DNA from: Scatophagus argus
Lineage: Eukaryota; Chordata; Actinopteri; Scatophagidae
Reading direction: 5' to 3'
Assembly (NCBI RefSeq): GCF_020382885.2
Contig: NC_058494.1
Coordinates: forward strand, 27,476,329 to 27,540,328
DNA length: 64,000 nt
Part shown: positions 15,374-47,900 of the stretch, piece by piece
How the letters are laid out: each line of letters begins with the position of its first letter
Numbering within the stretch: position 1 is the first letter of the stretch
Program-made: the position numbers and the translations under genes
Notes under the pieces: generated by a model
Databases searched by the model: none
What the model was told of the DNA's origin: nothing
What the model saw: the letters and a program-made list of their open reading frames with translations, nothing else

Positions 15374-15376
<3 letters not shown>
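15317..15376 (+). other. mdh1: mdh1 first exon, 5' UTR part with start codon
   Basis: The sequence before the ATG is open in the mdh1 frame for 20 codons, back to an in-frame TAG at 15314-15316. That TAG is also the end of a good acceptor (CCTTCTCTTCTAG). In the unspliced case this is simply 5' UTR, with the promoter at about 15230. If the acceptor is used, translation could enter from an upstream exon and extend the enzyme N-terminus. Confidence 0.5.
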
Positions 15377-20319
<4,943 letters not shown>

Positions 20320-20322
<3 letters not shown>

Positions 20323-20385
20323 CTACCTGGCCAAGAGCAGCACCAGCACTTAGATCCCCCAAAGTCTCGCTGCTCGCGGCTCTGA
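20320..20385 (+). CDS. mdh1: Predicted stop-codon readthrough extension of MDH1 (MDH1x) with peroxisomal signal
   Basis: The mdh1 stop is TGA followed by CTA, the strongest known readthrough context in animals. The frame continues without a stop for 20 codons (it starts LPGQEQHQ and ends SRCSRL) until TGA at 20383-20385. The C-terminal tripeptide SRL is a good type-1 peroxisomal targeting signal. In mammals a small fraction of MDH1 is extended in this way (MDH1x, ending CRL) and imported into peroxisomes, where it helps regenerate NAD+ for beta-oxidation. The readthrough context and a terminal PTS1 are both present here, while the intervening residues look unrelated. That is the pattern expected if selection acts only on the two ends. 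Expression is inferred. Confidence 0.8.
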
Positions 20386-20595
20386 AGAAGAAGAAGCTTC
20401 ACTCTGACTAACCGTCCCAGCTGTGCGTCACCTGTGTGTGTGTGTGTGTCAGTGTGTACGAGTGTGTGTGTCGCGGGGCCACCTCTTCAAAACCTGTTTC
20501 ATGACCACATCCTGGCCTCCTGAGCGATTGTCTCTGTCGGTAGGTTATAACACACACTAGCTGTTCAGAAACTGTTAACGGAACAAGTTATCACC

Positions 20596-20601
20596 AATAA
20601 A
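20596..20601 (+). terminator. Polyadenylation signal of mdh1
   Basis: AATAAA lies about 275 bases after the stop codon, giving a short 3' UTR that includes a (TG)n stretch at about 20432-20472. Confidence 0.7.
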
Positions 20602-21569
20602 ACCACAGGAACCCGACTGCCCACAGCCTTGTTTCTTTAGCGCTCTCACGCCTCGTGAGGCTGCCGTAAAGTTACCGCACATGTTGTCATGTCGGAGGTT
20701 CGGCCCAGAATAAACCGTTAGCACCGATTCGTCACGTGTCACATGCACACGAGTCCACTTGGCCAAGCAGCAAACCAACTCCTCACCAAACGGGTCATTT
20801 TAACTCCGAGTGTCAAAGTGTTTTCAGTGTCTGGACCCGTCCGGACCCGTCCAGACCCGTCCGGACCTCAAACTCAGAGCTGTCACAACATGAAACCGCA
20901 GCGTAAAGTTTCAGCATGGTCCCTGGTTTGCAGAAATGTTCCTTGCCAACGTTTATTCTGGTGACAAATCAATGAAACTCACTCATGAATTTGGTGTATA
21001 AAAACGACCAACGTGAATGACAAACTACAAGTCACGTGAGCCCTGACAGCATGTCAGAGCACAGAGATGTTAAACCTTTATAAACTCCCTCAGGATCGTC
21101 ATAAACCTCAGGTTATTAACACAACACGCGTGTCCTTTCTGACATCTGAACATTTTTTTAAAAAAAATATCCAATTCAGGATTTGAATCCAACGCAGGTA
21201 ATTAAATCTGATGAGTCCTTCAGGCTCCGCATCCACATGATGTGATTCCGGTCACGTCCTCCAGTGAGTCACTTTCACCACACGGGGGCAGCATCCACTC
21301 AAACTGAACAGGATCAGCTATTTATTCATAATACTCGACATTTTTCTTAACTTACGTGGAGAAATGACATTAACAGTTTTGATAAACATTAACAAAGAAA
21401 AATGGGACGACACTGACATGACACGGGCCTGAAATGTGAGGAAAGTGAATTGAAAGAAAAGCACAGGCAAGTTAAATGGAAGAAAAAGTATTCAACAGAA
21501 TAAAGTACATGAAGTATTCGCTTACTTTGGAGTAAAAATAGACCATCTTTGGTGGGCGGGACATGCTGG
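20602..21569. other. mdh1-ugp2 intergenic spacer
   Basis: No gene is seen. It contains a 10-base tandem repeat (20838-20870) and ordinary AT-rich sequence. The two genes run in the same direction but have separate promoters and poly(A) signals. Confidence 0.6.
20838..20870. repeat. Short tandem repeat, 10-base unit
   Basis: About three copies of a CCGTCCGGAC-type unit in a row, with one base change between copies. Confidence 0.8.
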
Positions 21570-23168: not shown

Positions 23169-29358
<6,190 letters not shown>

Positions 29359-32303: not shown

Positions 32304-33066
32304 CCGTGCTGGGGTCCCCCGTCATTGACGACTCCGAGTCGCGCCAGCTGCCTCTTCAGGTGCATCTTGAAACTGCCGTTGATCCTCAGAAACAACATCT
32401 GTACAGGAGGAGAGACACGTCAGCCTGAGGCCAGCAGCTGGACTTCTGTCAGACCAGTTTGGAGGACAAACGGCGTCACACGTGTTGAACAAAAGCAGAG
32501 CGGCGTGTCGAGGCTCACCTGCGTCTGCTCTTCAGGCAGAAGCTCATAAATGGCTTCGTGCATCTTCGCCATCTGCTTGCAGACGTTCCTGAAGCAGGCC
32601 GAGGGCATCGGGGCCTTCACTTCATACTGAGGGAACAACAAGACAACATCAGTGAGCGCCGGGAGCCGACAGCCCGCCTGCGGCGCCGCAGAGCAGCCGA
32701 CAGCCCGCCTGCGGCGCCGCAGAGCAGCATCGCACGGCTCATCGCACGGCTCATCTCACCTTCGACAAAACCTTCTCAAACAGGCTGTCCATGATGGCCA
32801 CCAGCTTGGCAGAGATCTCAGCGATGTGGTCGTTGTAGTCCTGCAAAGCCACAAACCGTCTCAGCAACCGAGTTTTACCAAAACTACGAGCAGATACTTT
32901 CTGTTGGAGGTCCGACTGTGCAGATGTGAACATCTGTGTGTTACCTTGGTGATGTGGTCAAAGTGTCTGAGGACGCTGAACTGCTTGGGCTGCAGTTTGG
33001 TCTCAAAGTGAGCTCTGATGATGGGAATGTAGTGAACCACCAGCTGCAGGCAGCGGGAAGCTAACG

Positions 33067-33103
<37 letters not shown>

Positions 33104-36100
33104 AGGCCTGTTCTGTCCTCTAATGGACCCTCTAACCTGACTGGTCAGACTGGTGCGGCTGCTGGTCTTACCGAGGTTCTTGGTGGTGATGGTCTTGAGG
33201 CCGACAACCTGCAGAGCTCCGGCGCCCAGAACCAGCTGGCAGCTCCGAGAGTTGAAGTGCTGCGGACAGACGAGAGCGACACTGAACGTTACGCCTACCG
33301 ACAGCAAAGCGGCCTCACGGTGGCGCTGTGGTCTGAGATTCTGCCACTCAGCCGCTCTGAGTTTGGAAAAGTTCCTCGGCTGAACGCGGTCTGAGTGTTT
33401 GCGGCGGTTCTGACCTTGAGGAGATCCGACAGACGCGTCAGCATGTCGGTGGCGACGGACGGGATGTCGTTGACACACTGACAGTATTCCAGGAAGATCC
33501 GGATCAGCAGCAGGACCGTCCTGGACAAACAGACACACAGGGTCACAACACAAACCTTCAGCTGCTGACTTTTTTGTCATACGAGGGTTTCAGTTTGGGT
33601 TTCAGTTACCCGATGACGGCGTATTTTTGCCCGTCGACGAGCAGGAACTCAGTGGGCTTCCTGTCGTCCGGACCTGCAGGCAGAAACCAAACATGTTAGG
33701 GCTGAGGTCTTCCAACACTTTACACTCTGAATGCGTCCTGTGCTGAAGAGTGAAGCGGTTCACGTCCTTCTGCTGACTAAAATGTAGTCCGGACTGCACA
33801 GGAGCCTTTCAACGGCTGCTTGTGCCACCATGAAAACACTTTTCAGGTGCTGCAGCGAAGCGAAGGCACACGACCTGCAGCACGCCATCTGCAGGACGCC
33901 ATCTGCAGGACGCCATCTGCAGGACGCCATCTGCAGGACGCCATCTGCAGGACGCCATCTGCCTGCTCCGCGTTTCATCATAAAACCAGTCAGTCAGTCA
34001 GTCAGTGTTGTTGGGGTTTGTGGAGGGTTTTGGCCCTCGATGGGGGGCAGTTGAGGGTCTTTGGGTACCTGTGATTTTGCGTTCTGGTAGTGTTATTCTG
34101 CCGTCGGCGATGGAGTTCACCAGGTCCTGGAACTCAGCAGGAACCTCCGCCTGCTTCCAGCGCTCGTTGTCCAGCAGGAGGCTGCGGGGACACGAGACAA
34201 ACCACATCAGGACACAAAGACACACTCGACCCGTCAGGGCAGCGAGTTTCCAAACTCAGACTCATCAGCATGAAAGCAGGCCTGAAGTCCTTCACATGGA
34301 AACTCGAACATCACAGCGTCCTGACTCAAACCGTGACTCCTACTGAGGACGTCCTCTCACGCAGCCGTCTCATGAGACACGCAGCCAGCTGAGCTAATCA
34401 GCTTCTTGTTCGGAGGCTAAAGCTAACTTTTCCCGTAACAACAATGAAAATATGGTGGCTGCATCCCTGCAAAGTCCTCTGACTGGATTAACAGGCGGCT
34501 GCTGACCTGAGTTTGGTCTTGCGCTCTTCGTGGAAGCGGTGGACAAAGCGGTTGGCCTGGCTCTGCAGCGCCCCCCGCAGGGAGACGCTGCGCCTGCCGC
34601 ACAGCTCCTCGGTGTCCCGGACGAAAGCCTCCACCGCCTGAGAGAGACACACGAACTCGGCCGAGCTCAGACGCTCCAGAGAGCCGTCCTGATGGAAGAC
34701 GGAGACCAATTTAGGGACATCACACAGAGGAATTTAAATTCAGTACGTTTGTAGTCGTGTTTAGATCCGTAAAAGAATTAAAAAGATAAAACTTTGTTCA
34801 GCCTGAGCAAAACTGGCGTGCAGCCGCTGCAGCACAAAGCAAGAAAGGCCCCAAAAACATAAACAGCTGCAGCAGGACCAGCTGAGCTATCAAAACGAAC
34901 AGCTGAGCAGCACACTCACTGACATGTTAATGAAAACGTGTGGTAAACAACATGATGATGTCATTAATAAACAGGAAATGCGCAAAATGTGGCCAGAATT
35001 TGACGGTCACTCCAAACCTCCAGGGGGCAGCACCTCACCACAGTAACTGCTAGCTGCTGCTAACTGCTGTAGCCAAAGCTGCCATTAGCTCAACGGTAGC
35101 TTCGGCTAGCGGCTTCGTCAGACAGGATGTGCTGCTGCTAGCTGGTTAGCACGCTAGCTTAGATATCTCATCAGCTCATCAGCTTCTGTTTGGGTCGTGT
35201 CGAGTTGTGTGCGCCACACCTGCGGCGGCGGCTAACGCACATCTCTCGTACCTTCGCTCTGGCTGTGAGGACTTTGACGCAGCGGTCGTGGCTGATGTCG
35301 GAGGCCGAGTACAGCAGCTCCTGGATGTTGTTGATGACGCGGTTCAGCTCGAGCTCGGTGGGCATCATGGTCTCGCCGGACCTGCGGACAAACACACTCG
35401 ATGTTTCGGCGCTTTTTGAGCGACACAACATCCACATTTGGCAGGATGGAAGAAAAAGTGAGGTGACATACATGAAGCTCTGCTCCCTGCCGACCGGCGT
35501 CTCGCTGCTCCCAGAGGCAGAGTCGCTACTGACAGCCTCCGTCCGGCTCTGCTGGACCCTGGAGCCCCCCGCAGAGTTCTGATCCTGGACCACCGCCGCC
35601 TGCTGCTGCCGCTGGGCCTCGTTCAGAGCGTCGCTGATGAACAGGCCCTCGTGGGTGAGGTAGGCCAGCTCAGCCTCGCCCTGCAGGAGCGACGGGTTGT
35701 GGGAAGCCTCCTGGCCAGAAGCCCCTGAAACGGCCTCCTCCAGGAGCCGGTTCTTCTGGTTCGAGGCCTGAACCTCCAGGACCACGTTTTTGATCACGCT
35801 CAGAGTGGCCTGACAGACAGACAGACAGAAGGGAAATACAAGCTGCTGTCAGGTTTTATCTTCTGTTTACGAGCGCGTGGGCTCAGATTGTTCTGTTCCA
35901 CACACTTGATCATTTTTTAACTTTTGTCGAGGTCGAGTCCATCAGGTCTGATTCTGACCCACCTTGATCCTCTGCAGGAAGAGAAGAAAACTCTCAAAGA
36001 CGTTTTTCAGCAGCTCAAACCACTGAGGGAACGTCATCACGCGCATCTGGTCAGCGAGCCTGCGGACGAGCGCACGTGTCACACGGCGTTAAAAACATCC

Positions 36101-44937: not shown

Positions 44938-47900
44938 CTAGTCCAACGGGCTTTGGAAGATGAGCCTGATGCAGCCGGACTCTCCGCTCAGCGGCTGGAT
45001 GCAGAACGGGCAGGCGGCCTGGAAGGTGTGCGTGCCGTGCGGCAGCGGGATCTGACTCCAGTACGCCGTCGTCTTCTCCGAGCAGACGTGACCGCAGGGG
45101 ACGAAGGCGTGGGTGGGGCGCTCCACGTCCACGTAGAAGGCCGCCTCGAAGCCCAGCCACAGCGGCACGTAGGGGCCCCGTGCCCGGCACATGGGGCACT
45201 CTCTCTCCTGACACTCCGCCTCCACCTCGGGGTCACGGCGGCTCCCCCAGCCGTGGTAGCCGTGCACGTGGCCGCAGCGCAGGTAGGCCCAGGGCTGCTT
45301 CTTGTCCACGACGTCTCTGCGGTGAAGGCTGGGGAAGGCCAGCGTGTTGAAGCCCACGGGACACTGCGGCCGCCCGGCGTTCAGCTCCTGCCGCAGAGCC
45401 TCCAGGTGTTTGACGGTGGGCGTGTGCGCCAGGCCCTCAGCCGTCCGCCACAGCAAGGTGGCGCCGCACAGGTCGATGAGCGATCCGTCCACCAGCTCGT
45501 TACACTCCGAATCCACCTGACGGAGCAGAAGATTACAGGTCAGTCACAACGACACGATGTGACGCCGCGGGCTGACGTTGAGATCACTTCCTGTCTTACT
45601 GCTGCTCCTGTAGCGTAGGTGGTTTTAACATTCATGTCATCAGAAAGCAATTGCCTTGTGAATTTAAAGTTAATAAAACAAGAAACACAAAACAGGAAAT
45701 GACCGTCTAAACGTGGGCGGGTCCAGTTCGACAACACATCATCACCGCAGACTATTCGGCCGTGACATTTGACCTTTGCATGCACTAAATCACACGCAGC
45801 TCGAGTCACCATCAGAGCAGACGCTTCTTACTAATATGAAGCCTTTTCAAGGAAGGTAAAACGCAGACAAGGTGCAGCAGTCCAGATGAGGACCAGGACT
45901 CTGCAGGCAGGGACAGGAGGGACGTGAAGCAGCAGAGGACAGAGACAGTCGGACAGAGGAGTCACCCACCATCTCGCCCCTCTGCTGAGACGATCTGGTT
46001 TCCCGCAGCATGAAGACGCTGCCGCAGACCGAGATTTCCCTCCACACTCCGGGTTTAGACTCCTGGCTGAAGCCGTGGCACGGGTGCATCACCAGAACGC
46101 CGTTGGTGGTCAGTCCGTCCATCTGACCGTCTTGCATCCTCCACTTGGCCGCCTTCTCCTGCGAAGAGGTCAACAAGCCGTGCTTCATGCCGAGAAACAT
46201 TTTGTCTGTTAATGATCGCCTCTAGTCAGTGCAGCCTACCCCGAGGAAGATGTTCTTGGACGAGTCGAAGCCCGCGGCGTAGATCCGCGCAGAGTAAGGC
46301 GGGTTCCTCTGGCAGATGATGCGGCAGGCGAAGCGGGAGATGGTGCTCTGAACCGTCTGACCGTCGGCGTGGCTCTGACCGCCGGGCACCGTGTCGGTCA
46401 CCACAAAGTCGATGGGATTCTCTGTGGAACGGCCGATCTGCAAACAAGGGGAGTCTGTTCACGCTGACGCCTTTAAGTCAGGTGTCACCCGATGAAAAAC
46501 TTCTACCAAACACCACAGACGACTGTGCAACGTGACTGGGCTAACTAAAGGAAAGAATAGAGTTATTATTTTGATTTAGTTAACTCGAAGACAAACTGAG
46601 CCTGAGTTATTATAAGATAAGATGAGATAATCCTTTATTAGTCCCGTAACTGGGAAATTCAGTCTGACTGACAGGAAGTGGTCCAAAATAAAACCAACCA
46701 AGAGGAGCATATCAGTGTGTGTGTGTGTGTGTGCACTGGATGCTACAGACCTGGAACATGTCTGTGCTGCTGTCGTGGGTGTACTCCACCACCACCGTCT
46801 GGGCCCGGGACAGAGTGTATGAAATACTGTGCTGCTCCTTGTTGCTTATCGCCTTTGGAAACACACGAGACACACACGGTTACTGAGAAAAGCTCCGTGA
46901 TGGCAGCTTTCTGTTCCTGAGGGAACAGGAAGTGCGAGTCGATAAGGTTTTCCTCAGTCTCGTGGCAAAGTAAACACACAAGAGCCAAAGTCCCCTCACT
47001 GTCTGTTTTCTTTTGTGTTGCCCATTTAAAGGCTTCACTGTGGGGCGTTCAATACATCTCACTCATTGACTGACTGATCAATACTTCACATGCAGAGAAA
47101 TAATCTCGACACCTGAGATTCCTTCAGTCTGAAACCTGGAGTTCTCTAACATGACATCAAGCCAAATGCGCTTTAACTGATTCTGGTCTTCTGTTGGGTC
47201 GTGTTTCTTCTTCACACGACCAAACCACTAAGCCGCATGGCCCGGCTGGTGACTGAGGGGGATCAGGGTTTCTGTGGTCCAGATGCTGGTGGCTTTTAGT
47301 TTCACCTGAACGTGTCTCACCTTGGCAGCCTGAGGCGTGCAGGACGAGTGCACGGTGCTGGGCTTCACGCCGTTGGCCTTGTTCCTGCGACACAGAGCGA
47401 AGCGGCTCTTCCGCCGCCCCTTGTCTCCGCCGGGCAGAGAGCCGTTACACCTGAAGGCACAACATGGTGGACGTGTTAAACTGCAGTGCAGCAGTCAGAG
47501 CAAACCATCAGTGTGTTTGTTGTTTCATCCTCTGCAGCATATTTCTCTAACAAGACAAACACACAGTTTGGTTCACGTAAACCTGCCATAATGACTCAGT
47601 GCTGGTGTGAACTTGAGTGTTGAGGTGGTGTGACGGTCTGGGGTCACATTCATTTCAGTTCTGGATACAATAATACGAAAGCAAACAAAAGGTCCGAATC
47701 CACAGCAGATGACCTCCCTGAACCTCAGTGTCCTCAGTGAAAGACCTTCAGTCAGGGAGTGGGCTGAGTTCTGGGTTCAGGCTCAGTTATTCTGCTGCCC
47801 AAACAATAACCAGCATCAACCGGCAGTGGGACGGAGTCACTGTTTTCTAAGACACAAGCAAGTCTCAAGTCATGGCTATGAAATCCTCAGTCAAGGGGAC

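Follow-up and report, generated by a model that had tools for sequence, protein, structure and literature searches.

The mdh1 gene in the analysed stretch of Scatophagus argus DNA (64,000 nucleotides, called the window below) very probably carries the arrangement described for vertebrate MDH1x, with a probability of about 93% on our assessment. In this arrangement readthrough of a UGA-CUA stop would yield a minor peroxisomal isoform ending in the peroxisomal targeting signal PTS1 SRL. The gene, the motif, the frame, the tripeptide and the improbability of their coincidence were established from the sequence here, and readthrough, import and function are carried over from published orthologues. 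Gene, motif, mechanism and SRL end are all already known, as described in the texts of PMC5133446, PMC4207609 and PMC8919083.

The window gene is a cytosolic NAD malate dehydrogenase (MDH1). It consists of nine exons and eight introns, all eight with GT-AG borders, and its 1002 nt including the stop encode a product of 333 amino acids (Table 1). The product scored 544.7 bits against the equivalog profile TIGR01758, MDH_euk_cyt, for which the cut-off is 470.4. In the alignment to the top PDB chain, named 'Malate dehydrogenase, cytoplasmic', residues 1-332 of the total 333 were paired with residues 1-332 of 334 (E 4.1e-180). Because this alignment covers practically the whole of both chains, the first TGA is taken to be the usual end of the enzyme. 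The profile score and the PDB match together bear out the name mdh1 that the gene had been given in the initial annotation.

Table 1. Positions, in window coordinates, of mdh1, its stop site and extension, and two neighbouring genes
Feature	Position	Strand	Basis
mdh1 coding region, complete	15374..20322	+	spliced frame; TIGR01758 match; near full-length PDB match
mdh1 exons 1-5	15374-15376, 16294-16392, 17133-17229, 18415-18590, 19255-19377	+	
mdh1 exons 6-9	19521-19697, 19777-19890, 20012-20101, 20200-20322	+	
Core motif for readthrough, TGA CTA (ordinary stop and positions +4 to +6)	20320..20325	+	sequence
Readthrough extension, 20 codons, LPGQEQHQHLDPPKSRCSRL	20323..20382	+	translation
Predicted PTS1 tripeptide Ser-Arg-Leu (TCG CGG CTC), with KSRC just before it	20374..20382	+	translation
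Second in-frame stop TGA	20383..20385	+	sequence
First AATAAA polyadenylation signal 3' of the mdh1 stop	20596..20601	+	pattern scan
Exons of UGP2 (UTP-glucose-1-phosphate uridylyltransferase), 3' of mdh1	26202-29358	+	
Pellino-family exon with stop	44938-45516	-	Pfam Pellino_RING

From stop to stop (20320-20385) the sequence reads TGA CTA CCT GGC CAA GAG CAG CAC CAG CAC TTA GAT CCC CCA AAG TCT CGC TGC TCG CGG CTC TGA. As in the MDH1x context, the UGA of mdh1 is followed by CUA, and the short open extension leads after 20 codons to a PTS1 end, SRL. Position +7 is a C, and the favoured but non-defining G of UGA-CUAG is thus absent. The extension is contiguous with the coding part of the last mdh1 exon and lies upstream of the AATAAA signal, which places it inside the presumed mRNA. 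CTA is used for none of the 26 leucines in the mdh1 coding sequence, and the stop contexts of the three adjoining genes are different (UGP2 TGA GGC, Pellino TAG GAA and a VPS54-like gene TGA TGG). The initial annotation had noted TGA followed by CTA, 20 open codons to a second TGA and the SRL end, and each of these was recovered in sequence and translation. Its description of UGA CUA as the most efficient natural readthrough context in animals applies in part, since the UGA-CUA motif is present here, but the strongest motif in print is UGA-CUAG and the site in this gene is UGA-CUAC.

MDH1x has been reported in vertebrates with an SRL end in non-mammals, from which the discussion of the paper excepts amphibia, and with CRL as the mammalian PTS1 (Hofhuis 2016, PMC5133446); the SRL of the present extension is thus the published norm outside mammals. 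Human MDH1 readthrough was 4.3% in that work, fell to background when UGA or the C at +4 was mutated and to 0.4-0.8% when +5 or +6 was mutated, and both Trp and Arg were inserted at the UGA in HeLa cells. Import was blocked when the human extension lacked its final Leu, and the SRL tail of zebra finch was functional in HeLa cells with more efficient import than the human tail (PMC5133446). The cryptic PTS1 of MDH1 was described as highly conserved in animals and traced to Hydra (Stiebler 2014, PMC4207609). A zebrafish Mdh1x with an SRL end (Mdh1aa, NP_001303854.1) is listed in a 2022 inventory (PMC8919083); compared by its description, this fish orthologue likewise reaches a PTS1 SRL through readthrough of UGA, but its second stop is UAA and not UGA as here. 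Since the published orthologue work gives readthrough, SRL, import and deep conservation, mdh1 of S. argus would be an ordinary source of MDH1x. The same published layout in vertebrate MDH1 (PMC5133446) and in zebrafish Mdh1x (PMC8919083) supports the dual-targeted enzyme that had been proposed for this gene. The present mdh1 adds to the sequences in which the MDH1x signal is intact, in agreement with the published retention of SRL in non-mammalian vertebrates.

Human MDH1x resembles the present case in the gene, the UGA-CUA context and the short in-frame extension with a PTS1 end, and differs in an extension of 18 codons (57 nt with the second stop; PMC5133446) compared with 20 here. The first three extension codons are CTA GAC AAT (L-D-N) in human (PMC4359377) and CTA CCT GGC (L-P-G) in S. 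argus. The earlier statement that only the stop context and the tripeptide are retained thus agrees with the change of codons 2-3 from D-N to P-G, a comparison confined to these first three codons. The extension is described as conserved among vertebrates in the text of PMC5133446. Mammalian LDHBx shares the UGA-CUA readthrough and the hidden PTS1 and is also an NAD dehydrogenase, but it is the product of a different gene whose PTS1 extension is reported in mammals only in the text of PMC4359377.

The surroundings of the stop are CCTGTCCCAG TGA CTACCTGGCC in S. argus and TTCCTCTGCC TGA CTAGACAATG in human MDH1 (PMC4359377). Where human has G at +7, G at -3 and C at +9, S. argus has C, C and T, respectively; the two share C at -5 and T at -6. 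With these bases in place of the favoured ones, readthrough efficiency may therefore be low. UGA-CUA alone gave about 1.5% readthrough (PMC4132726), and the first six of the seven nucleotides of UGA-CUAG were universal in vertebrates for four other genes in the same report. The +7 base was critical also in the OPRL1 context (PMC4132726) and was called of particular importance in PMC4207609. In HeLa reporters of human MDH1, G to C at -3 lowered readthrough from 7.8% to 1.4%, and AT to GC at +11/+12 raised it to 18.9% (PMC12233894); the latter pair, GC, is the one found at +11/+12 here. The effects of context positions are not additive (PMC12233894) and the flanks differ from those in human, so the efficiency in S. 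argus is unpredictable. No fish measurement of readthrough was found in the titles and text passages covered by the literature search. Despite these context differences the system is, judged by its arrangement, of the human MDH1x type. The lineage might use a signal UGA-CUAC in place of UGA-CUAG, with the efficiency set by other positions such as GC at +11/+12 or by a local stem-loop and with a ratio of peroxisomal to cytosolic malate dehydrogenase unlike that of tetrapods, which we regard as a tentative and rather unlikely proposal. C at +7 together with the altered flanks makes the gene a natural variant useful for dissecting the context positions that set efficiency.

The chance expectation was estimated from the 3039 TGA triplets of the window, counted on both strands and in any frame, 3035 of which have an in-frame next stop. 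CTA followed directly in 10 of the 3035 and the extension ended in [SAC][KR]L in 8, and the two occurred together once, at the mdh1 site alone. TGACTA is not enriched in the window (10 observed, 15-17 expected). When all three stop codons with extensions of at least 3 codons were considered, 13 of 4580 ended in [SAC][KR]L, 7 of these 13 in SRL. A random 3'UTR model, first-order Markov and trained on 20323-20620 with the extension included, produced the tripeptide in 0.3%, CTA in 1.4% and both in 0.006% of 200,000 sequences (12/200,000; about 6e-5). A coincidence of TGA CTA and SRL by chance or as a relict, in a gene that has no functional peroxisomal isoform in this fish, would fit the departures at +7, -3 and +9 from the favoured human context and the GC3 of the extension, 65% as against 87% in the mdh1 coding sequence. 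However, such a coincidence is very unlikely in view of the joint chance of about 6e-5 in the orthologue of a gene for which the feature is published across vertebrates, and of TGA, CTA, frame and SRL each being intact.

PTS1 isoforms can arise by splicing in other genes, and in principle a transcript spliced so as to bypass the stop could encode the extension without readthrough. No support for this was found, and the stop and the extension are contiguous after the last acceptor found. Alternative splicing was rejected when a scan of 20194-20400 limited to the narrow donor-like pattern GT[AG]AG gave no site, and we consider this route extremely improbable. An imperfect potential stem-loop at 20329-20381 spans most of the extension. 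Were it to boost readthrough, replacing the missing G at +7, it would add to the MDH1x readthrough and be compatible with it. The 66-nt slice from stop to stop folds at -21.5 kcal/mol with a z of -2.13, and 5 of 200 shuffles were as good, but the signal is gone in slices of 100 nt and 101 nt (z -0.41 and -0.81, with 64/200 and 43/200 shuffles as good). Being notable only in the exact stop-to-stop slice and absent in the two longer ones, a stimulating RNA structure was rejected as a robust signal. Scrambling of the 50 nt after the human MDH1 context, moreover, left readthrough unchanged, these nucleotides being dispensable (PMC5133446), and a boosting role of the stem-loop is on the whole improbable.

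Under the preferred reading, UGA-CUA readthrough of mdh1, most ribosomes would terminate at the UGA at 20320 and produce cytosolic malate dehydrogenase. In a small fraction a near-cognate tRNA would decode the UGA in its weak UGA-CUA context, as with Trp and Arg in HeLa cells, adding 20 residues, and termination at the second UGA would expose the PTS1 SRL. The receptor PEX5 would then import the PTS1-bearing extended subunit into peroxisomes, probably paired in a dimer with a subunit that lacks the extension. Peroxisomal malate dehydrogenase is thought to re-oxidise the NADH from beta-oxidation.

Downstream of mdh1, the identity of UGP2 was given by a Pfam UDPGP match of the single exon tested (26998-27294). 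A 36-residue VPS54-like piece had no match in a Pfam search, and its name is our assumption from the gene order beside human MDH1 and UGP2. The neighbours in the window presumably follow the human 2p15 order MDH1-UGP2-VPS54-PELI1. The window also holds a minisatellite at 33875-33962, with 6.3 copies of the 14-base unit CTGCAGGACGCCAT and 98% matches, and a perfect tandem duplication at 32664-32728 with 2.1 copies of a 31-base unit.
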